IMG/VR virus record: IMGVR_UViG_3300009034_000007
Coordinates: 32,729-96,728 of that record
Length of the DNA stretch: 64,000 nucleotides
Strand: one strand, 5' to 3'
Source of the DNA: a virus
How positions within the stretch are numbered: position 1 is the first letter of the stretch; each line of letters starts with the position of its first letter. A program made the translations under genes and the position numbers. Below are positions 51,039 to 61,901 of this stretch, piece by piece. The notes below the pieces were generated by a model, which searched no databases, had not been told where the DNA came from, and worked only from the letters and a program-made list of their open reading frames with translations.

Positions 51039-51638
51039 CTAGTCTAGCATAACGGTTGTACGCGTTTCCTTGCTACCACGTTTCACTGTAGCATATCCCG
51101 ATTCAATCTGTTGACTCCAATAGCCCAACAGATAATTTAATCGGTCCGCAATAGCTTCACCGTCGAATGATACACCGTCTTTAACTTTGATCGATTCAAC
51201 GGTGATCCCTGCTTTGTATGCTTCACTTAAGCAGAGTGCCATTAAGCAGGATTCGCTAGACTTTTCGCGTCCTGTCATCATTTTTCGCGTGACCCATGCT
51301 AAGAAGTCTAATGTGTAGAATTGAAGTCTAGACTCCTTAACTGCTTTGTCTAGAAGAGCAGTATTGAATACATTGCCCGAATGTCGTCCACGCTCTTTAG
51401 ACTTTGGGTCTATCGCGATATGGTGATGTTTGGGTTGTTTGTGTATGGTGGGAGTCTTGAGCCACGGAAGTTTAAACTTTGTTACAGTCTCATTATCCGA
51501 GGGGCGTTGGTAGAATTGCCCTACACTGTTAGCCACCCATACAAACGTCTTAACGATTGTTGCCATTAAGGATAATAGTATCGTCATGATCTCATAACGA
51601 TTATCCTTAACCTTTCCCTTCGATCTCTTCTTGCTCAT
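51039..51638 (-). CDS. Leftward gene of unknown function, 199 aa
   Basis: Starts after GGAAAGG. A basic N-terminus (MSKKRSKGKVK), one hydrophobic stretch (TILLSLMATIVKTFVWVA), and a C-terminal soluble domain with a helix-rich part (SCLMALCLSEAYKAGITVES) and basic end (KRGSKETRTT). Single gene with its own terminator, adjoining the control region. Could be a DNA-binding or membrane regulator, but no motif is decisive. Confidence 0.62.
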   Translation of the reverse strand: MSKKRSKGKVKDNRYEIMTILLSLMATIVKTFVWVANSVGQFYQRPSDNETVTKFKLPWLKTPTIHKQPKHHHIAIDPKSKERGRHSGNVFNTALLDKAVKESRLQFYTLDFLAWVTRKMMTGREKSSESCLMALCLSEAYKAGITVESIKVKDGVSFDGEAIADRLNYLLGYWSQQIESGYATVKRGSKETRTTVMLD

Positions 51639-51907
51639 GTTACCTTTCCTTTAACGTGTAGTGTTGTGTGCTGTCATGATGATATAAACCTGTAGGCTAT
51701 ATAACCTGCTATCCCTACTGCTATGGTGATCGAGTCCCACTGGAGGAACGCGAATACTACCATTGTGGGAATCTGGCAGGTTATAAATAGTAATATCTTG
51801 CCCATATTGAATCACCTCTCTAGCTTCACCGTGATTTTACGCGTACGCGTTACCCGCGTATTAAATGAAGCTAGTCTAATTCTTGCACACATTTTACGCG
51901 TCAAGAG

Positions 51908-51919
51908 GAACGCATGTTC
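51908..51919. promoter_or_regulatory. LexA-like box GAACGCATGTTC
   Basis: Exact GAAC-N4-GTTC core inside AGGAAC-GCAT-GTTCTA. Similar to the boxes at 44764 and 52192. Confidence 0.55.
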
Positions 51920-51998
51920 TATGCGTATAGTCATAAAATTCTAAGTGTAAAAAAGTGTAAAAAAACCGTTTTCGATCAAAAAATTAATTTAACATTGC

Positions 51999-52014
51999 GT
52001 TCTAATATTAGAAC
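51999..52014. repeat. 16-bp perfect palindrome GTTCTAATATTAGAAC
   Basis: A self-complementary 16-mer using the same GTTC/GAAC words in reversed order (GTTC-N8-GAAC). Likely a dimeric-protein binding site rather than an RNA stem, since it has no loop. Confidence 0.6.
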
Positions 52015-52191
52015 TTAATTACATTTTAATGAGTCAATTTTTTAAGGTTTCGTTCTAATTTTACACCTATAAATTAAAATCACTAGAACGCTAACCTTCG
52101 CGAATGTTAAAAAAAACCACCAGGATTTTAATTGTGATATTTTTCACAGACGAGATCTTAAAATTTCGCATAGTCATCACCTTTTAACATA

Positions 52192-52203
52192 GAACGCACG
52201 TTC
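52192..52203. promoter_or_regulatory. LexA-like box GAACGCACGTTC
   Basis: Exact GAAC-N4-GTTC core within TAGAAC-GCAC-GTTCTA. It differs at one spacer base from the box at 51908. Confidence 0.58.
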
Positions 52204-52400
52204 TAGAAGTAGTATCGGAGTACTAGGACTTCCGTACTATCATTTCGTATAGCCAAACATGAGTCTATCCCCCATATGTCCTAGAGCAAATGTTCTAATA
52301 GTTCAAAATTTCACAATTAAGATCTCCATTTGTGAGAAAATTCACAAAGGTACTTAATAGCGCGTACCAAAAACCATGTATTTAGTACACACATAGTCCA

Positions 52401-52436
52401 TGTAACGGACTCAGGCGCAAAATTGAGAATAAGGTC
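52401..52436. repeat. Bipartite element, copy 1
   Basis: TGTAACGG (52401) and AAATTGAGAATAAGGTC (52420-52436), starts 19 nt apart. One of four copies with identical phasing (others at 52599, 52781, 59024). Confidence 0.7.
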
Positions 52437-52598
52437 GAGTACTTATTAAAAAGTACAAAAATCGATGTAATATTCAAAAAAACATAAAAAAGCACCAATT
52501 TGGTAGAAGTAAAACTCTCTGGCGTAGCTTTTCCCCTAGTGGTACTTAGTATAGTGTACTGTTACATTGAAGTAAAGTGTACTTAGTTCTATTGGTAC

Positions 52599-52634
52599 TG
52601 TAACAGGAAGTATAGCGAAATTGAGAATAAGGTC
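52599..52634. repeat. Bipartite element, copy 2
   Basis: TGTAACAG (52599) and AAATTGAGAATAAGGTC (52618-52634). The second half is identical to copy 1 over 17 nt, while the 13 nt between the halves differ. Confidence 0.7.
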
Positions 52635-52780
52635 AAGTCTTAGTACTTAGTTCACAAGTACTTAGTTCTTTGACATGTGTACTCAAGTGCTGAGTAAAAC
52701 GGTAGCCAATATGCCCTACCTAATATACTAAGTTACTGAGTTCTACATTGAAAATTGAATAGTTGTACCAGTGTAAGCTA

Positions 52781-52815
52781 TGTAACAGGCTTGGTCTAGA
52801 AATTGAGATTAAGGC
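52781..52815. repeat. Bipartite element, copy 3
   Basis: TGTAACAG (52781) and AAATTGAGATTAAGGC (52800-52815), again 19 nt apart. Confidence 0.68.
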
Positions 52816-52969
52816 ATTTCTAGTACTAAGTTCACAGTTCTCTCGACAACGTATTGGTGAGTAGAACCGCTGAGTTGAGTTGAACTAGTACAAACGCGTG
52901 AGTAATTGATTGTATACTAATTGTAGTCAATTGCATACTATATGTATACAGTGTATTAAATAAAAAAAA

Positions 52970-53000
52970 CCCTAGAACTCCCACTAGAGGAGTCCCAGGG
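52970..53000 (-). terminator. Terminator of the 53-56.8 kb leftward operon
   Basis: On the minus strand a 12-pair stem with two G-U pairs (arms 52989-53000 and 52970-52981, 8-nt loop) is followed by eight U. The two G-U pairs would be A-C mismatches in the opposite RNA, so it is directional. It overlaps the end of the last gene. Confidence 0.88.
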
Positions 53001-53115
53001 CTACTGCTGTATACCATAACAGGTACATTAATACTGTTACTATTACAGCCATGAGTACACCTGACACAATAAAAAATACCTTATTTTCGAGTAATTCAAG
53101 GAATCTGTTAATCAT
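52984..53115 (-). CDS. Membrane peptide, 43 aa
   Basis: Starts after AAGGA. Soluble N-terminus (MINRFLELLENKVFF), then one hydrophobic span (IVSGVLMAVIVTVLMYLLW). Last gene of the leftward operon. Its stop lies in the terminator stem. Confidence 0.55.
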   Translation of the reverse strand: MINRFLELLENKVFFIVSGVLMAVIVTVLMYLLWYTAVALGLL

Positions 53116-53306
53116 TTTATTTCCTTAACAGTAAAGTGTAATGTACCAATTGATGTACTATATAGGACGAAATCGAGTAGTTTAACTAACAGATGACGCT
53201 GACAAAAATAGTAAATAATACTCCCGTCTACTGTTATTGTATATTTAGCGTCTACATGCTCCTTAAATAAACTATGGCACGTATCACAATAAGCATGTGC
53301 GGGCAT
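53112..53306 (-). CDS. Zinc-finger-like protein, 64 aa
   Basis: CDTCHSLF (Cys7, Cys10) and FCQRHLL (Cys, His near 35-38) form a possible CxxC...CxxH site. Overlaps the next gene by 4 nt. No family recognised. Confidence 0.6.
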   Translation of the reverse strand: MPAHAYCDTCHSLFKEHVDAKYTITVDGSIIYYFCQRHLLVKLLDFVLYSTSIGTLHFTVKEIK

Positions 53307-53581
53307 TAGATTAACTCCTTGAGGTCTAGATCAGGTAACATATCTTCTTGATGTGTGAGTACACCAAGGAAGTTACCTTCTACATGCTTACCTACTACTG
53401 TTTCACCCTGAGTATTAGTAATATGAGTATATTCCTCAAAAAATTTATCATTACTCACAACAATGCGTACTCCAGACTCATTTATAAGATAAGCCTCACC
53501 TGTTCCCATAACATCTATACCGAGATACAAGTACAACTTACGAGTACGCTTATTCTGTATAGTTTGACCTAGATACAACAT
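53306..53581 (-). CDS. Hypothetical protein, 91 aa
   Basis: Beta-rich (LYLGQTIQNKRTRKLYLYLG, VGKHVEGNFLGVLTHQED) with an acidic C-terminus. One-base overlap with the zinc-finger gene downstream. Unknown function. Confidence 0.6.
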   Translation of the reverse strand: MLYLGQTIQNKRTRKLYLYLGIDVMGTGEAYLINESGVRIVVSNDKFFEEYTHITNTQGETVVGKHVEGNFLGVLTHQEDMLPDLDLKELI

Positions 53582-53700
53582 TCCACTATTGTCTCAATGA
53601 GTATTAAATCACCAACTACTCCAATAAAATAGTACACTAATGCTAGAAATTCATCAGGCTTACATTTACGCACGAAGAAGTACGCGGCAGTCGTAAACAT
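53569..53700 (-). CDS. Membrane peptide, 43 aa
   Basis: Preceded by AGGAGAG. Two short hydrophobic stretches (FTTAAYFFV and FLALVYYFIGVVGDLILI). Overlaps the following gene by 13 nt. Function unknown. Confidence 0.52.
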   Translation of the reverse strand: MFTTAAYFFVRKCKPDEFLALVYYFIGVVGDLILIETIVECCI

Positions 53701-53725
53701 TTACACTCTCCTATACATCCGCTAT

Positions 53726-54172
53726 TTAGCGTTCGTCTCTACCATGTAAGTTCTCTAGAGCCTGAGCTATAATACTATCCTCTTGGCGTACTACCACATT
53801 ACCTTCTTCATCTTCAAGAGAATCTAATAGCTCATTTTTAGAACAACTCAATTCATGGAGTACAACGTGTTCCCCATTATCATTAGCACAACAACTCCAG
53901 GCTCTACCACAAGTGCATAATGTAATGAAGCCGTTTTTCTTCAAGTTGTGATCTTTGTGGTATGTATCAAGAACGAGACTTCTACTGATATTACCCATAT
54001 TATGCAGAGAATCAATTTGTAGGTAATTTCCATCCCACTCCTCAGTAATAAATTTGATTATTTCTTGCTGAGTTTTAATCAATTCCTCATTCCTGCGCCC
54101 CTCAAAATCTAATCTCTCAGCCTTGAAGAACGCATCTATGAGTATAAATGCTTGTTCATTTAGTTTAGCCAT
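53726..54172 (-). CDS. Hypothetical protein with cysteine motif, 148 aa
   Basis: ATG 54172 is chosen over a TTG at 54190. A helical N-terminus (KLNEQAFILIDAFFKAERLD) and a middle CTCGRAWSCC (around residues 90-99) that could hold metal. C-terminal acidic (LDSLEDEEGNVVVRQEDS). Unknown. Confidence 0.6.
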   Translation of the reverse strand: MAKLNEQAFILIDAFFKAERLDFEGRRNEELIKTQQEIIKFITEEWDGNYLQIDSLHNMGNISRSLVLDTYHKDHNLKKNGFITLCTCGRAWSCCANDNGEHVVLHELSCSKNELLDSLEDEEGNVVVRQEDSIIAQALENLHGRDER

Positions 54173-54190
54173 TATGCGTTTAACCTTCAA

Positions 54191-54292
54191 TCACTTACAG
54201 AATATAAAGTTGAGTAACATAAAGAATACTACTCCATATATAAACACTACAACTAATAATACGCGTTGTACATCAGGCTTTAATCTACTCAT
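54191..54292 (-). CDS. Membrane peptide, 33 aa
   Basis: Good ribosome site GCAGGAG. Basic leader (MSRLKPDVQR) and one span (VLLVVVFIYGVVFFMLLNFI). Starts within the end of the upstream gene. Confidence 0.55.
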   Translation of the reverse strand: MSRLKPDVQRVLLVVVFIYGVVFFMLLNFIFCK

Positions 54293-54527
54293 CTCCTGCA
54301 TTATCCATAATTATGCACTCAGGGAGTATAACCATGTGAGCTAGATAGTGGATTAGTGATTGTACTCGCACAGAGTGTACATGTATCTTCATGAGATGCA
54401 AACGCCTAGCGAGTTTTACCAATGCACCTTCTAAACCCTTAGCTTGGTATAGATAATTTATCTCATTTCTACCAGCAATACCATCCTTTACAGGAGTAAC
54501 TTTCGCAAACCACCATTCATAGTTCAT
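54285..54527 (-). CDS. Hypothetical protein, 80 aa
   Basis: Starts at ATG 54527, overlapping the upstream stop (ATGA), rather than at a weaker GTG at 54575. MNYEWWFAKVTPVKDGIAGR then a helical region (LEGALVKLARRLHLMKIHVH). Function unknown. Confidence 0.58.
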   Translation of the reverse strand: MNYEWWFAKVTPVKDGIAGRNEINYLYQAKGLEGALVKLARRLHLMKIHVHSVRVQSLIHYLAHMVILPECIIMDNAGDE

Positions 54528-54826
54528 TGAATTATACTCTCCAATGCAGTAATCTTCACTACCTGAGTAGAACACACACAGGGATTTCTAAATTGAGGGT
54601 TGAGGTGTCCTCTCTGTGGAGTATAGATTAATAAAGGTTTACCAAACATTATAGGCGAATTGAGTAAAACTCCAGTCTCAAGTTGTTTGGATCCTCCAGT
54701 AACATTATTCGCCTGAGTAGTAATGTGAAGGTCTTTGTACTCATATGGCACGGCTTCTCCATCTTCATCAGTGAAGTATTCAACGATGTACTCAGCACCC
54801 GATTCAGTTTCTACCAGATATTTCAT
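54524..54826 (-). CDS. Hypothetical protein, 100 aa
   Basis: Starts after AAGGAG. Acidic beta-rich N-terminus (KYLVETESGAEYIVEYFTDE), then LLIYTPQRGHLNPQFRNPCV. Unknown function. Confidence 0.6.
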   Translation of the reverse strand: MKYLVETESGAEYIVEYFTDEDGEAVPYEYKDLHITTQANNVTGGSKQLETGVLLNSPIMFGKPLLIYTPQRGHLNPQFRNPCVCSTQVVKITALESIIQ

Positions 54827-54838
54827 TTATAGTTCTCC

Positions 54839-54943
54839 TTAGCGTATGGCGTTGATGACATTGTGAATGGTAAGCACAATACATGTTAAAAATAAAATCT
54901 TGAGTATTAAATAATAAAAGTGTTCCTTCAACTCATCTTTCAC
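54839..54943 (-). CDS. Possible membrane peptide, 34 aa
   Basis: A GTG start overlaps the upstream gene. Hydrophobic middle (YLILKILFLTCIVLTI). Support is only the reading frame and its fit between genes. Confidence 0.32.
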   Translation of the reverse strand: MKDELKEHFYYLILKILFLTCIVLTIHNVINAIR

Positions 54944-55070
54944 AGTAACTCTTGAATATGAGTAGTCCATCAACCACATGCTTTTCTACTCGAAATGCCA
55001 CGAATATTGGAAGCCAGAGTTGATACAGAAGGAACACTATTAATGCAACGCGATCAAAATGACATATCAT
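54933..55070 (-). CDS. Membrane peptide, 45 aa
   Basis: The internal ATG at 55070 is preferred over one at 55130, which lies inside the neighbouring gene. One span (VALIVFLLYQLWLPIFVAF) flanked by charged residues. The next small frame overlaps it. Confidence 0.5.
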   Translation of the reverse strand: MICHFDRVALIVFLLYQLWLPIFVAFRVEKHVVDGLLIFKSYCER

Positions 55071-55290
55071 TGAGTTGTAATCCAACCACGTATTTTTGAT
55101 CAAATTCATGTAGAACTTCGACACTATCAATACGCCATGTCTTGTCAGGAACTTGCTCCATTGCGTATTTCAAGGCACTTGGTCTAGTAACAGCCCGTAC
55201 TGCAAAGTCGAGTTCATCTTGAATAAAATTACTCAAATCATTATCATTAATTACAACAACACGTACAATGTACAGCTTTGCGTTCTTCAT
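55054..55290 (-). CDS. Hypothetical protein, 78 aa
   Basis: Strong AGGAG site. Begins MKNAKLYIVRVVVINDNDLS. A small mixed-fold protein. The C-terminus overlaps the following membrane peptide. Unknown function. Confidence 0.6.
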   Translation of the reverse strand: MKNAKLYIVRVVVINDNDLSNFIQDELDFAVRAVTRPSALKYAMEQVPDKTWRIDSVEVLHEFDQKYVVGLQLNDMSF

Positions 55291-55320
55291 ATCACTCCTG
55301 TTGTCGTAGGAGGCTAATCA

Positions 55321-55521
55321 CTACACAGGCTTGTGCTTCTTCGGCACATATGAGTTGATGTATTCTCCGTTTTCTTTATTCCAGCACACTACTAAGTTCT
55401 TATGGACTACAAATGTAGCCTCAATACTATGTAAGCGTGCGGGATAACGTCCACAGACCACATCAACTGGATCACGGATTAGAACTCGCGTAGAGTAAAA
55501 TTCAATCCCTGTCGAGGTCAT
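55321..55521 (-). CDS. Hypothetical protein, 66 aa
   Basis: Overlaps the upstream zinc-cluster gene by 20 nt. Beta-type sequence (HSIEATFVVHKNLVVCWNKE). Unknown function. Confidence 0.55.
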   Translation of the reverse strand: MTSTGIEFYSTRVLIRDPVDVVCGRYPARLHSIEATFVVHKNLVVCWNKENGEYINSYVPKKHKPV

Positions 55522-55705
55522 AGTTACTTGGCTCCATAGTTCTCATTATCCTTCGGAGGTCTATAAAGCATGGTATACAAATAAATATGCTTCTAGTACT
55601 CCTTAGACTTTTAATTTCAAAAACATCGCGTACGTCGTTCGTGAGTTCAGGAATACAGAAGTCACAACCGCCGTTGTGTCCTTCTTCTACTCGGATGACT
55701 AGCAT
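55502..55705 (-). CDS. Small zinc-site protein, 67 aa
   Basis: GGCDFCIPEL and IFICIPCFIDL give two cysteine pairs (Cys14, Cys17 and Cys43, Cys46), a classic four-cysteine zinc site. The ribosome site is CAGGAGA. Unknown role. Confidence 0.62.
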   Translation of the reverse strand: MLVIRVEEGHNGGCDFCIPELTNDVRDVFEIKSLRSTRSIFICIPCFIDLRRIMRTMEPSNYDLDRD

Positions 55706-55720
55706 TAGTGTTCTCCTGAG

Positions 55721-55843
55721 TTACGGTGTCTGTTGTAGGATTAGCACCACGTTGATTAGAAACGCTATTATAACACTGATGGAAATGCCAATATTAATTC
55801 CTAAAATGATTGTTAATCCAAGTCTGAGTAATATTCTTCGCAT
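55721..55843 (-). CDS. Membrane peptide, 40 aa
   Basis: GAGG upstream. Basic start (MRRILLRLG) followed by one long hydrophobic span (LTIILGINIGISISVIIAFL). Overlaps the gene upstream. Confidence 0.55.
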   Translation of the reverse strand: MRRILLRLGLTIILGINIGISISVIIAFLINVVLILQQTP

Positions 55844-55995
55844 TGTGGATTATCCTCATGCAGACGATCTACACATTCCTGAGTTCTAACGATCTCTGCT
55901 TCTATTAACGCCTCTGCCACATCTTCTATGAGGTCTTTAGGCATACTCAGAGCATCTTTCAACGCTGAGACTACCCTAGTATGTAATTTATCCAT
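55813..55995 (-). CDS. Hypothetical acidic helical protein, 60 aa
   Basis: ATG 55995 lies just after the upstream stop, fitting reinitiation. Helical (KDLIEDVAEALIEAEIVRTQ) and acidic end. Unknown function. Confidence 0.58.
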   Translation of the reverse strand: MDKLHTRVVSALKDALSMPKDLIEDVAEALIEAEIVRTQECVDRLHEDNPQCEEYYSDLD

Positions 55996-55996
55996 A

Positions 55997-56269
55997 TTAA
56001 TCAATAATTGGTAATCCCGCAAGGAAGCGTTCTAAATCATGTGGATAACAACCTTGTGCGATACAAGTTTGTCCTCGCATCCAAGAACCGAATCGCTTGT
56101 GTTCTTCCTCATCCATGAGTTCTTCAATTTTATCCCAATCTACATAGGCTATCTCATACTCCTCGCCCATTGAGTTTACTCCCCTATTAACTTCTATCTC
56201 AAAACCACGTTCAGTGAGTAAAGGCAGTTGACTTTGCCACCTACGTAGAACTGACTTGCTAATGGTCAT
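55997..56269 (-). CDS. Hypothetical protein behind CIRCE-like operator, 90 aa
   Basis: ATG 56269 has GGAGGTCAC directly ahead, so it is chosen over a TTG at 56311 that lies in the operator. Contains LRRWQSQLPLLTERGFEIEV and a C-terminal HDLERFLAGLP. No known family. It is the gene nearest downstream of the element at 56301-56326. Confidence 0.65.
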   Translation of the reverse strand: MTISKSVLRRWQSQLPLLTERGFEIEVNRGVNSMGEEYEIAYVDWDKIEELMDEEEHKRFGSWMRGQTCIAQGCYPHDLERFLAGLPIID

Positions 56270-56300
56270 GTGACCTCCTATGGTAGAACTTAAATAGAAA

Positions 56301-56326
56301 TTAGCACTCAATGATTTGAGTGCTAA
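56301..56326 (-). promoter_or_regulatory. CIRCE-like operator TTAGCACTC/GAGTGCTAA
   Basis: TTAGCACTC (56301-56309) and GAGTGCTAA (56318-56326) match both 9-bp arms of the CIRCE element, the HrcA heat-shock repressor site, exactly. The spacer is 8 nt, where the usual is 9. It lies 32-57 nt before ATG 56269, in the 5' leader position typical of CIRCE. As RNA it would also form a perfect hairpin. Confidence 0.68.
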
Positions 56327-56347
56327 TCTCTCGCTGAGTTCTATCAG

Positions 56348-56848
56348 CTAGTGAGGGTCATTCCTAAGATGGCGTTCTAACCATACGCCAAATCGTTTTA
56401 GAACTAGAGCCTTGGCTTTAACATTCTTGGGAATTCTATACGGTTTCCCGCATACGGGACACTTGAGGTCTACTCGCCAATCGTGTAGTCTAGGCTTACG
56501 CATCCTACGGATTGAACGTGGGAGGGGGAATGTACTCTCGCCGCTGGTACGTAGACCGTGAGTATAGCCATAGCTGGCTATAATCCATCCGATACATAGT
56601 GTAGTGTTAGTGAGTAGTGATGGATTATCCTCCAAGAACTCCAGGATTTGCCACAAGTGTGCTTCCACTAGAATTCGATTTGAGCCAAGTAGAAATTCTA
56701 TGAATTCTATCATCTGTGGAGCAATAATGTGATCCTTGAGTATTTGCAAGGCTCGGTACAGGTCTTTCCATTTAAAACGGTAGACTGTACCAGTTTTAAA
56801 CTTCTCGCCTTTACGCGTACTGATAGTGAACGTAATCTTTTTTCTCAT
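56348..56848 (-). CDS. Zinc-ribbon protein, 166 aa
   Basis: First gene of the P1 operon, after AAAGGAGTAG. A helical N-terminal part (KDLYRALQILKDHIIAPQMI) and a C-terminal half-ribbon CPVCGKPYRIPKN, with basic residues to the end. Could bind nucleic acid. The function is unknown. Confidence 0.62.
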   Translation of the reverse strand: MRKKITFTISTRKGEKFKTGTVYRFKWKDLYRALQILKDHIIAPQMIEFIEFLLGSNRILVEAHLWQILEFLEDNPSLLTNTTLCIGWIIASYGYTHGLRTSGESTFPLPRSIRRMRKPRLHDWRVDLKCPVCGKPYRIPKNVKAKALVLKRFGVWLERHLRNDPH

Positions 56849-56902
56849 ATTTCTACTCCTTTTTAAGGTACTGGTTCTTTTGGGGTCAAATGCCCCTCCC
56901 TC

Positions 56903-56950
56903 ATCATATCATAAATTGTTGAGTACCTCAAATGAGTAGCCAAAGTGAGT
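56903..56950 (-). promoter_or_regulatory. Leftward promoter P1 with upstream box
   Basis: On the minus strand: -35 TTGAGG (56926-56931), 17-bp spacer, -10 TATGAT (56903-56908). Two bp upstream of the -35 is ACTCACTTTGGCTACTC (56934-56950), which is identical in P2. It drives the 56848-52984 operon. Confidence 0.78.
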
Positions 56951-56979
56951 ACGCGTAGAATTTTTATTTAAAAAAAAGT

Positions 56980-57001
56980 GGGGCGGACTTACGCCCGCCC
57001 C
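56980..57001 (-). terminator. Leftward terminator of gene 57020-57574
   Basis: GGGGCGG/CCGCCCC (56980-56986 with 56995-57001) and, on the minus strand, eight U after the stem. It lies just upstream of P1, so the two units are insulated. Confidence 0.9.
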
Positions 57002-57019
57002 TGAGTAGAACTGGCGAGG

Positions 57020-57574
57020 CTACAAAGTAACACTAACTTCAGCAGTTTTCTTTGAACGAGTTTTCTTTGGCTGAAGTTTAGCAACATGTGGGAACCGTGC
57101 CTCTGAGTTCATGGCTGACTGTGCTTTCTGCTCGCACCATGAGATCAACTCAGACAGTGACCACATTATCGTACCACCTCGCTGTTTGTACTCGACAATC
57201 ACGTTGTACTTCGCAGGATTTAGACCTCCAACCATCCTGGGAAATAACTCAGAATTAACAACATTACTCACCCAATTAGCAAAACCGAGGTGACGATCAC
57301 TACGAGCAGACCCAGTTCCACCAAGCAAGGCGTTAAAAATAAAAGTTGCTTGATTAGGATGAATACCTTCTAAGAACTCCTTATTGGCGTAGATAACATA
57401 CTCTTTATGGGTCTGTGTACCAGGCTTCCCTGATTCAACTCGGACCTCACTAATTTGCCCCTTCTCTTGACTAGGAGCCATACTAACTCTACTAAAAAAA
57501 GTTTTTAATGGAGGTAAACCAATTATTTCTATGGTTTTTGAGTTCTTTGCAGTGCTGGCTTTCCTCTTTGCCAT
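57020..57574 (-). CDS. Basic leftward protein, 184 aa
   Basis: N-terminus KRKASTAKNSKTIEI and C-terminus KTRSKKTAEV are basic. The middle contains NWVSNVVNSELFPRMVGGLN and RGGTIMWSLSELISWCEQKA. Its ribosome site overlaps a GAGTANTACTC palindrome. Likely a DNA- or RNA-binding phage protein. No family recognised. Confidence 0.6.
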   Translation of the reverse strand: MAKRKASTAKNSKTIEIIGLPPLKTFFSRVSMAPSQEKGQISEVRVESGKPGTQTHKEYVIYANKEFLEGIHPNQATFIFNALLGGTGSARSDRHLGFANWVSNVVNSELFPRMVGGLNPAKYNVIVEYKQRGGTIMWSLSELISWCEQKAQSAMNSEARFPHVAKLQPKKTRSKKTAEVSVTL

Positions 57575-57678
57575 TGAGTAATACTCCTGTATGTATTCTG
57601 CTATGATGATAAAGTAAAATTAAGGCACGAGTAGTATTAATGTGATTAATAGCCTCCTACAACAGATTAAAAAAATCT

Positions 57679-57797
57679 GGCTAGTAGCCAGAGGGGAGTA
57701 ATACTCAGTTTTCCCTAGCCCGCGTAACTAGAGTTTCAATAACACTTAGCGCGGAATTATCGAATTATCGAGTATTACTCCCCTCTAACTACTAGCC
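57679..57797 (-). repeat. Large inverted repeat H1
   Basis: Arms 57679-57706 and 57770-57797 match over 26 of 28 positions. The centre 57707-57769 holds a further CCGCG/CGCGG pair. It lies in the leader of the gene ending at 57020. Arm sequences include GAGTAATACTC, which is also present in that gene's ribosome site. Confidence 0.8.
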
Positions 57798-57832
57798 ACA
57801 GTGCCAGTAGTTAGAGGTAAAGGAGGAGAAAC

Positions 57833-57862
57833 ATGAGCAAGCGGTACGCCCCGAAAGAGTAA
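57833..57862 (+). CDS. Nine-codon reading frame with strong ribosome site
   Basis: AAAGGAGGAG lies 4-12 nt before the ATG. The frame reads MSKRYAPKE and then TAA. It is rightward in an otherwise leftward region and lies between hairpins H1 and H2. A leader peptide is possible. The alternative is chance. Confidence 0.42.
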   Translation: MSKRYAPKE

Positions 57863-57868
57863 ATCTAT

Positions 57869-58008
57869 TGTCGAGTATTCCACTCGCTCTTTTATTTCTC
57901 GACAGACCTGAGTTGTTTTACGAGTGCAGGTCTATGTAAAGGTTGAGTAGTAGTGGCATAGCCTCTATTAGCTGAAAGATTGGAAAGGTATGCTCTAATC
58001 TACTACTC
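57869..58008. repeat. Inverted repeats H2-H4
   Basis: H2: TGTCGAG/CTCGACA (57869-57875, 57898-57904). H3: AGACCTG/CAGGTCT (57904-57910, 57927-57933). H4: GAGTAGTAG/CTACTACTC (57945-57953, 58000-58008), with an inner GCATA/TATGC pair. They stand in a row after the nine-codon frame. Confidence 0.68.
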
Positions 58009-58041
58009 AGCTTTATGAGGAGATTATTATTTCATTTGATA

Positions 58042-58132
58042 CCTCCTCTCAAGAGTTCTAGTGATAACAATTCAATTTTGCGTACTCGAAGGTTTGTTCT
58101 TCTTCGAGGTCACTAGAACTCTTGAGAGGAGG
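58042..58132. repeat. Large inverted repeat H5
   Basis: A 23-bp perfect repeat (58042-58064 with 58110-58132). Inside it is a second hairpin CTCGAAG/CTTCGAG. The arms contain CCTCCTC, complementary to ribosome-binding purine runs. There is no U-tract on either side, so it is not a normal terminator. Confidence 0.82.
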
Positions 58133-58151
58133 CGTCCCCCGCCAATTCTAC

Positions 58152-58544
58152 TCAAAGCAAATGTACCCAAATATTGAGTATTTTTGCTTTTAGGGTATCA
58201 GTCACCCGTGGAAACTCACAGATATGTTCTAACGCCCGTTCTGGTTCTTTGAGCATTATATCTGCCATGCGTTCCAATGCACCGCGGCGAGTAAAACCAG
58301 AAAAGCCAGTTTTAACACACATCGGTACATTATCTAGTGGTATATTGGTAAAATACCATCTATCATTCTCATCGCCTGTACCGTAGGACGGGTTGACGAC
58401 TTGAAGGCATATAAAACTCAACCCCTCGCAGAACTCAGCCATGACTACACCGCTATTGCGGGTATTGAACTCATCCTGGCTGTTGGTTTCGTTTACTGGA
58501 GGAGAACTAGATTTACTAGCAGAACGTGATTTCTTCTTAGTCAT
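58152..58544 (-). CDS. Leftward protein of P2 unit, 130 aa
   Basis: N-terminal serine/lysine-rich tail (MTKKKSRSASKSSSPPVNET), then a compact domain (VVMAEFCEGLSFICLQVVN, GFTRRGALERMADIMLKEPE). Driven by P2. No recognised family. The layout resembles the 57020 gene in having a basic unstructured start. Confidence 0.6.
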   Translation of the reverse strand: MTKKKSRSASKSSSPPVNETNSQDEFNTRNSGVVMAEFCEGLSFICLQVVNPSYGTGDENDRWYFTNIPLDNVPMCVKTGFSGFTRRGALERMADIMLKEPERALEHICEFPRVTDTLKAKILNIWVHLL

Positions 58545-58616
58545 CGAGGTGTACTCCTTTTAGAGTTGTAATCAAGAAGCTGTACCAGATGACGGGGGAC
58601 GCGTGATCCACACCTC

Positions 58617-58664
58617 ATCCTACCATAAAAACGCGAGTACCGCAAGCGAGTAGCCAAAGTGAGT
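58617..58664 (-). promoter_or_regulatory. Leftward promoter P2 with upstream box
   Basis: On the minus strand: -35 TTGCGG (58640-58645), 17-bp spacer, -10 TAGGAT (58617-58622). The 17-bp upstream box at 58648-58664 is identical to P1's and also lies 2 bp from the -35. Drives the 58152-58544 gene. Confidence 0.75.
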
Positions 58665-58890
58665 TCTAGCCGTTTGGTGGAGTAGCCACAGAGCTGTACT
58701 CTGCCAGAAAAAGCTACGCTAATGAGTTTTGGTTCTTAATCTCACTCGAATACAATATACACACAGAGCTATACCAAATTGTGAGTATTCCCTGTTCACC
58801 ATGTCTTCCTTTTAAATACGCGCCCGCGTGAGGTACTAAGTTTTAGGTATATAGTTCAGATTTCTACTCAGGTTAAATTAAAAAAAATTG
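58665..58890. other. Non-coding region upstream of P2
   Basis: No credible gene. A partial echo of the P1/P2 box (GAGTAGCCACAG) occurs near 58680, and GGTACTAAGTTTT near 58833 resembles the GTACTTAGTTC repeats of 52.5 kb. Confidence 0.45.
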
Positions 58891-58891
58891 A

Positions 58892-58929
58892 AGTGGGATT
58901 AATATTTGGCAGAGTATATTAATCCCACT
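58892..58929 (-). terminator. Leftward terminator of the 59-64 kb genes
   Basis: AGTGGGATTAATAT (58892-58905) and ATATTAATCCCACT (58916-58929), 14 bp perfect. On the minus strand the stem is followed by TCAATTTTTTTT. Ends the transcript of the 59-64 kb genes. Confidence 0.88.
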
Positions 58930-59023
58930 CTAGTTTAAATTAATTTATCTACGCGAGTTCTTTAATTTACCCCGAATTCTTATTTTTCTTAATTTGGGAG
59001 TAAATTAATTTAACATGTCACTA

Positions 59024-59058
59024 TGTAACGGCGACTGTTTAGAAATTGAAATTAAGGC
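59024..59058. repeat. Bipartite element, copy 4
   Basis: TGTAACGG (59024) and AAATTGAAATTAAGGC (59043-59058), 19 nt apart as in the copies 6.2-6.6 kb away. Confidence 0.65.
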
Positions 59059-59109
59059 TATTAAATATTAAGGTGGACGGATGCTGATTAACATCGTTTC
59101 TCCTTTTGT

Positions 59110-61811: not shown

Positions 61812-61901
61812 ACCGAGAGTCACCCCTCTCTTTATTGAGGATTCACAATGAAAATTTAACCCTTTCCACCTTTTTGATAGGAATCTCGGATGACTCTCGG
61901 T
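61812..61901 (-). repeat. Long-range inverted repeat ahead of 61580-61789
   Basis: ACCGAGAGTCA (61812-61822) and TGACTCTCGGT (61891-61901), 11 bp with a 68-nt interior. On the minus strand the second arm ends in CGGTTTTTC, so it may act as a terminator of the gene upstream. It may otherwise be a small RNA. Confidence 0.55.

Follow-up and report, generated by a model that had tools for sequence, protein, structure and literature searches.

What role could be served by a non-coding gap that separates two genes on the same strand and is taken up by an array of inverted repeats? The question is raised by the window analyzed here, a stretch of 64,000 nucleotides that makes up the final 64 kb of a virus record of 96.7 kb and in which such an array separates gene A from gene B, both on the minus strand (Table 1). 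The record has genes for RecA, DnaB, and a polymerase of family A, so the uncultured virus is most likely a tailed bacteriophage. Late genes occupy the plus strand up to ~50 kb, and long open reading frames lie on the minus strand from 51 kb onward; genes A and B are neighboring early genes. Neither has a Pfam or PHROG match, and no PDB match was obtained with the predicted structures of gene B (poor; pLDDT, 57) or gene C (fair; pLDDT, 75.6).

Table 1. Features of the array and its surroundings, and the counterpart hairpins in relative G007 (positions are those of the window unless prefixed with a locus).
Feature	Position	Strand	Description
H5	58042-58064/58110-58132	minus	23-nt arms, 100% complementary; 45-nt loop
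H4	57939-57953/58000-58014		Moderate, 13 of 15 positions paired; inner 7-bp stem
H3	57905-57932		Small hairpin, GACCTG/CAGGTC
H2	57869-57904		Small hairpin, TGTCGAG/CTCGACA
H1	57678-57706/57770-57798	minus	29-nt arms, 27 Watson-Crick pairs plus 2 G.U; 63-nt loop
I3	57782-57796/57803-57817	minus	15-bp hairpin, one G.U; competes with outer half of H1
T hairpin	57676-57692 (57669-57692 with U7)	minus	TCTGGCT-ACT-AGCCAGA, then U7
Nine-codon frame	57833-57862	plus	MSKRYAPKE; AAGGAGGAG at 57820-57828; antisense to all neighboring genes
Two-codon frame	58035-58027 (58027-58047 with AGGAGGT)	minus	ATG AAA TAA; ribosome-site word inside H5 3′ arm
P_A	58617-58645	minus	Promoter-like TTGCGG-17-TAGGAT, upstream of gene A
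P_C	56903-56931	minus	Promoter-like TTGAGG-17-TATGAT, upstream of gene C
Gene A	58152-58544	minus	130 aa; upstream neighbor of array; homologues in G007, G021, and G013; positional counterpart in G046
Gene B	57020-57574	minus	184 aa; downstream neighbor of array
Gene C	56348-56848	minus	166 aa; conserved CPxC...H motif; completes syntenic A-B-C module
Intrinsic terminator	56980-57001	minus	Ordinary; 3′ of gene B; 9-bp stem, T8
H5 counterpart, G007	L123:9619-9683		After gene A; 22 bp, perfect; 21-nt loop
H1 counterpart, G007	L123:9035-9152		Before gene B; 28-nt arms; 62-nt loop

An earlier, sequence-only reading of this DNA described five large inverted repeats, which overstates the case: H1 and H5 are exceptional, whereas H4 is moderate and H2 and H3, with stems of only 6 to 7 bp, are unremarkable. 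It correctly gave H5, which starts ~20 nt past the gene A stop codon, perfect arms enclosing a nested hairpin (7 to 8 bp, within the loop), and it recognized H1 as a long inverted repeat but made its arms 1 nt too short, at 28 nt. In a uniform scan for inverted repeats (Watson-Crick pairs, mismatch penalty of 4, loops of ≤110 nt) covering ~186 kb of the contig and its relatives, four strong ones were found, namely, H5, H1, and two in the A-B gap of relative G007; H1 and H5 are the sole strong inverted repeats of the whole contig (the 64-kb window plus the other 33 kb). Folding of both strands, which had been proposed as a check, placed the array region far below its shuffles on either strand (z of about −11), and the four most structured of ~850 300-nt windows across the 64 kb, after correction for composition, all fall in the array. 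With the covariance models of Rfam 15, no family exceeded its gathering score in the slot between the hairpins. Two further elements had been overlooked: the T hairpin, followed by T7 on the minus strand, and I3, in which the right arm of H1 finds an alternative partner (57803-57817). On the minus strand, the H1 stem stops 2 nt short of U7, such that H1/T, like an intrinsic terminator, has a U-run directly after its stem. The assertion that no known terminator accounts for the array is thus wrong in the case of H1. No tRNA is encoded in the window gap. H5 has no U-tract after its stem, as had been stated; what follows it on the minus strand is TATCAAATG.

Relatives were identified through the capsid protein: after its alignment with the capsid protein of G001, a relative recovered through RecA (60% identical), a search of IMG/VR yielded at least 117 of them. 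(One capsid homologue, L117 [66%], sits on a contig binned as Bathyarchaeota, representing either a binning error or an unexpected host.) Other queries were less productive: searches of viral contigs with genes A, B, and C, the terminase, and the promoter 17-mer yielded no match, as did searches of phage and plasmid DNA collections; the polA query returned matches of 27% only; and the RecA query returned the fragments G001 and G002, which end short of the locus. The terminase of these two fragments (L034:12120-14891; 923 to 931 aa) matches the 523-aa terminase at both ends only and carries an in-frame insert of ~380 aa, possibly an intein.

Homologues of gene B occur in G007 (45% identical), G021, and G013/G014, with a weak one in G046; those of gene C occur in the same records (39% identical in G007); and those of gene A adjoin gene B in G007 (31% identical; E value, 8e-20), G021, and G013. 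The place of gene A in G046 is occupied by a 112-aa frame, 18 nt upstream of gene B; as the gene A profile does not match this frame, it is a positional counterpart only. Judged from these homologies, the gene order A-B-C is conserved among the relatives. The gap between A and B is 577 nt long in this phage, 845 nt in G007, 228 nt in G021, ~270 nt in G013, and 18 nt in G046, and its folding z scores are −7.3 here, −4.8 in G007, 0.7 in G021, and −0.7 in G013: in the more distant relatives G021 and G013, the gaps are short and unstructured and the array is absent. A frame of 46 to 61 codons for a small basic protein is present just upstream of gene B in G007 (L123:8862-9002), G021 (L126:7278-7442), and G013 (L132:7722-7907) and is missing from the window. 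Also in G013, an inverted repeat with 20-nt arms and a tRNA-Met gene (L132:8501-8733) follow gene B rather than lying between A and B.

Paired hairpins are present in two genomes only, this phage and G007, whose A-B gap holds both strong inverted repeats of its 10.9-kb region. Their order and geometry are alike: a perfect stem of 23 bp (here) or 22 bp (G007) after gene A is followed by arms of 29 nt around a 63-nt loop or 28 nt around a 62-nt loop before gene B. Their sequences are not. H1 and its counterpart show no significant match; H5 and its counterpart are weakly above shuffles (3/200), apparently through the common word GTTCT; and when the two gaps are aligned end to end without restriction, the result is no better than with shuffles. 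The same order, the same relation to the genes, and a near-equal geometry with changed letters are what selection on pairing predicts. U-rich sequence follows both H1-type hairpins on the minus strand (U7 here and a weaker UUUUUC in G007), and the H5-type hairpins lack a U-tract, with TTATACTG following the G007 counterpart. Between its two hairpins, G007 carries genes for tRNA-Leu, tRNA-Ile, and tRNA-Lys, all on the minus strand. Among the possibilities listed in the sequence-only reading, the structured RNA is thus the one that the relative supports, with two hairpins retained in the same place and minus-strand tRNAs in the gap. The loss of repeats in close relatives without compensation, which was to count against that reading, is the opposite of what G007, the closest informative relative, shows: there, pairing is kept while letters change. 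From the more distant relatives, the whole array is gone.

Which strand would carry such an RNA is not settled by wobble pairs alone. On the minus strand, all 29 positions of H1 pair (two as G.U), as do all 15 of I3 (one as G.U), and the three non-Watson-Crick positions involved become A.C mismatches on the plus strand. H4 and the G007 repeat IR1 disagree: contrary to H1 and I3, both mismatches of H4 become G.U on the plus strand, and IR1 has one wobble favoring each strand. H3 to H5 are also marginally more stable on the plus strand. A scan of the 96.7-kb contig for terminator-like elements (stems of ≥10 bp abutting ≥5 T) recovered four, all on the minus strand, with H1 the longest and strongest. 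Taken together, the wobbles of H1 and I3, the U-tract scan, and the minus-strand tRNAs of G007 favor the minus strand. A second long-loop stem, with a loop similar in size to that of H1, occurs in an intergenic region at 61813-61900 on the minus strand (13 bp, 62-nt loop, then T5).

We give an even chance to the explanation that H5 and H1 are minus-strand RNA hairpins that bracket a slot for small RNAs within an A-B operon and act in processing and termination. A transcript would run from P_A through the slot; cleavage of the H5 duplex by an RNase III-type enzyme would free the gene A mRNA of the downstream RNA; H1 would serve as a long-stem intrinsic terminator, possibly a leaky one, or as a processing site, ending the slot RNA before gene B; and H2 to H4 may be the leftover of, or a replacement for, tRNA cargo. 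At 23 bp, H5 has the length of about two helical turns seen in RNase III substrates and lies between genes that are presumably co-transcribed, a common transcript being plausible because the A-position gene and gene B adjoin in G046, 18 nt apart. Probably, the paired hairpins signal RNA processing and transcript ends and are not the replication or packaging site that had also been put forward, for which no positive support was found. P_A and P_C have in common a 52-nt element (58613-58664 and 56899-56950) that is 81% identical, and these elements are probable co-regulated operators. In a scan for sigma-70 promoters, promoter-like sites were no commoner than in shuffles, with the exception of this pair. 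Words of the form GAGT recur in the 52-nt element at an exact 13-nt spacing. A promoter site within H5 (58052-58023) was discarded, being at chance level in the same scan.

Unlikely is the alternative that the palindromes act as DNA, as protein-binding or cruciform sites for replication, partition, recombination, or operator function, tied to a word that saturates the whole module. Hairpins of the H5 type could equally be DNA cruciforms or protein sites, and the perfect symmetry of H5 and its G007 counterpart would fit such a role. GAGTA/TACTC is much more frequent than expected in the arms and their surroundings, and an 11-mer, GAGTAATACTC, occurs in both arms of H1 and at the start of gene B. 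Within the 7.5-kb block around A-B-C, GAGTA/TACTC numbers 82 occurrences versus 15.6 expected from the remaining contig; inside genes, it occurs 36 times versus 13.7 ± 3.1 in synonymous shuffles, and this excess indicates an enrichment at the level of DNA rather than of codons. The word-saturated module (51600-59100 in the window; L123, L126, L132, and L133) has its words on both strands and in genes and gaps alike. The word itself varies: TGAGTA in the window recurs as GAGTA/TGAGTA in G007, whereas, in tests that are partly selected since the words in relatives were chosen by a scan for enriched 5-mers in the tested loci themselves, it is GGTNC in G021 (77 in coding sequence versus 39.8 ± 4.4) and G013 (43 versus 23.9 ± 3.6) and AGGACA in G046 (12 versus 2.9 ± 1.4), where GTACGC occurs as well. 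For GGTNC and AGGACA, the excess is still well above the shuffle maximum. If true, a lineage-specific word accompanying a syntenic A-B-C module would be an instance in which the co-evolution of a DNA-recognition system and its sites can be tested directly. The word makes up much of the sequence of the array arms, although it is not part of the array. A protein site would be expected to keep its sequence in a relative with the same word, yet H1 and its counterpart differ; H1, moreover, is coupled to a U-tract, and the G007 gap also holds tRNA genes. Elsewhere in the module, a 38-nt element resembling CCTTA(A/T)TCTCAATTT-N12-GTTACATGG has four non-coding copies on the minus strand (52398, 52596, 52778, and 59021), and a similar stretch occurs in G007 near L123:10590.

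Alternatively, I3, the inner part of H1, and T could together oppose the full H1 in a bistable leader of gene B that sets the read-through from A to B, with a topology (1:2 plus 3:4 versus 2:3) like that of trp-type leaders. On the minus strand, neither fold contains a mismatch, each precludes the other, and their energies nearly coincide (−69.2 kcal/mol for the full H1 versus −68.0 kcal/mol for the alternative); segment T directly precedes U7, and its compact hairpin (7 bp, 3-nt loop) competes with the 29-bp H1. Both folds, however, abut the U-tract, such that neither is a clean antiterminator, and bistability is not conserved in G007, in which the alternative loses to the full hairpin by 18 kcal/mol (−32.7 versus −51.1 kcal/mol). 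For these two reasons, we rank such attenuation below the bracketed RNA slot and consider it doubtful, somewhat behind the DNA-level element. Apart from MK*, the minus strand also has no leader frame preceded by a ribosome site, and there is no Rfam match. A minus-strand peptide, MFLLLYL, was considered as a Leu leader and rejected; it has no ribosome site and is a by-product, complementary to the plus-strand ribosome site.

A broader and still more tentative version of the bracketed RNA slot is a fixed-border, exchangeable RNA cassette in an early operon, in which geometry is selected and sequence is free; its cargo would vary (three tRNAs in G007, a structured RNA here), and the module word would imply a co-evolving protein that reads the DNA or RNA of the module. 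If the bracketed slot is real, hairpins recognizable by their geometry rather than their sequence would delimit small-RNA cargo in an uncultured phage group with at least 117 capsid relatives, and they could guide searches for processed phage RNAs absent from Rfam.

The three tRNA genes of G007 lie at the place corresponding to the window slot, which has none, and H2 to H4 might accordingly be decayed tRNAs, with the hairpins now lacking a role. Decay, however, would not leave H5 perfect and H1 fully pairable; H2 to H4 have no tRNA-like score, and the middle of the window gap is not significantly similar to the tRNA segment of G007. As an account of the whole array, this is improbable, although it is compatible with the bracketed slot as a sub-case limited to H2 to H4. 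Least credible is a plus-strand regulatory RNA or translation switch acting through the nine-codon frame: AAGGAGGAG plus ATG is rare by chance away from real gene starts and plus-strand stability of H3 to H5 is slightly greater, but there is no supported plus-strand promoter, the minus strand carries every neighboring gene and the G007 tRNAs, and neither this frame nor the two-codon frame has a counterpart in the gaps of G007, G021, and G013. The switch suggested by the sequence-only reading is therefore not supported; the nine-codon frame and its good ribosome site do exist, but not as the lone frame of the region, the two-codon minus-strand frame, whose AGGAGGT is likewise a good site, having been missed.

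Several known systems resemble parts of this locus. The nearest known analogue of the module words is the stoperator system of the cluster A mycobacteriophages, in which the sites differ according to the cognate repressor (PMC6550527). Stoperators are 13 bp long, mostly in one orientation, and genome-wide, whereas the module words are 5 to 6 bp long, on both strands, and restricted to one module. Trp-type attenuators likewise combine three mutually exclusive helices with a U-tract, which here lie on the minus strand, but this locus has no leader peptide and its bistability is not conserved in G007. Phage tRNA gene clusters are represented by tRNA-Leu, -Ile, and -Lys in the corresponding gap of G007, whereas the window gap is without tRNAs. 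As in intrinsic terminators, H1/T is a GC-containing stem followed by U7 on the minus strand; known intrinsic terminators have short loops, in contrast to the 29-bp stem and 63-nt loop of H1. RNase III sites of T7 contain internal loops, whereas the stems here are perfect or nearly so and a slot for tRNAs lies between two hairpins. The likeness lies in the processing hairpins of early RNAs of T7 (Dunn and Studier 1973, cited in PMC5371410), which are likewise long intergenic duplexes between co-transcribed early genes, with pairing conserved over sequence.
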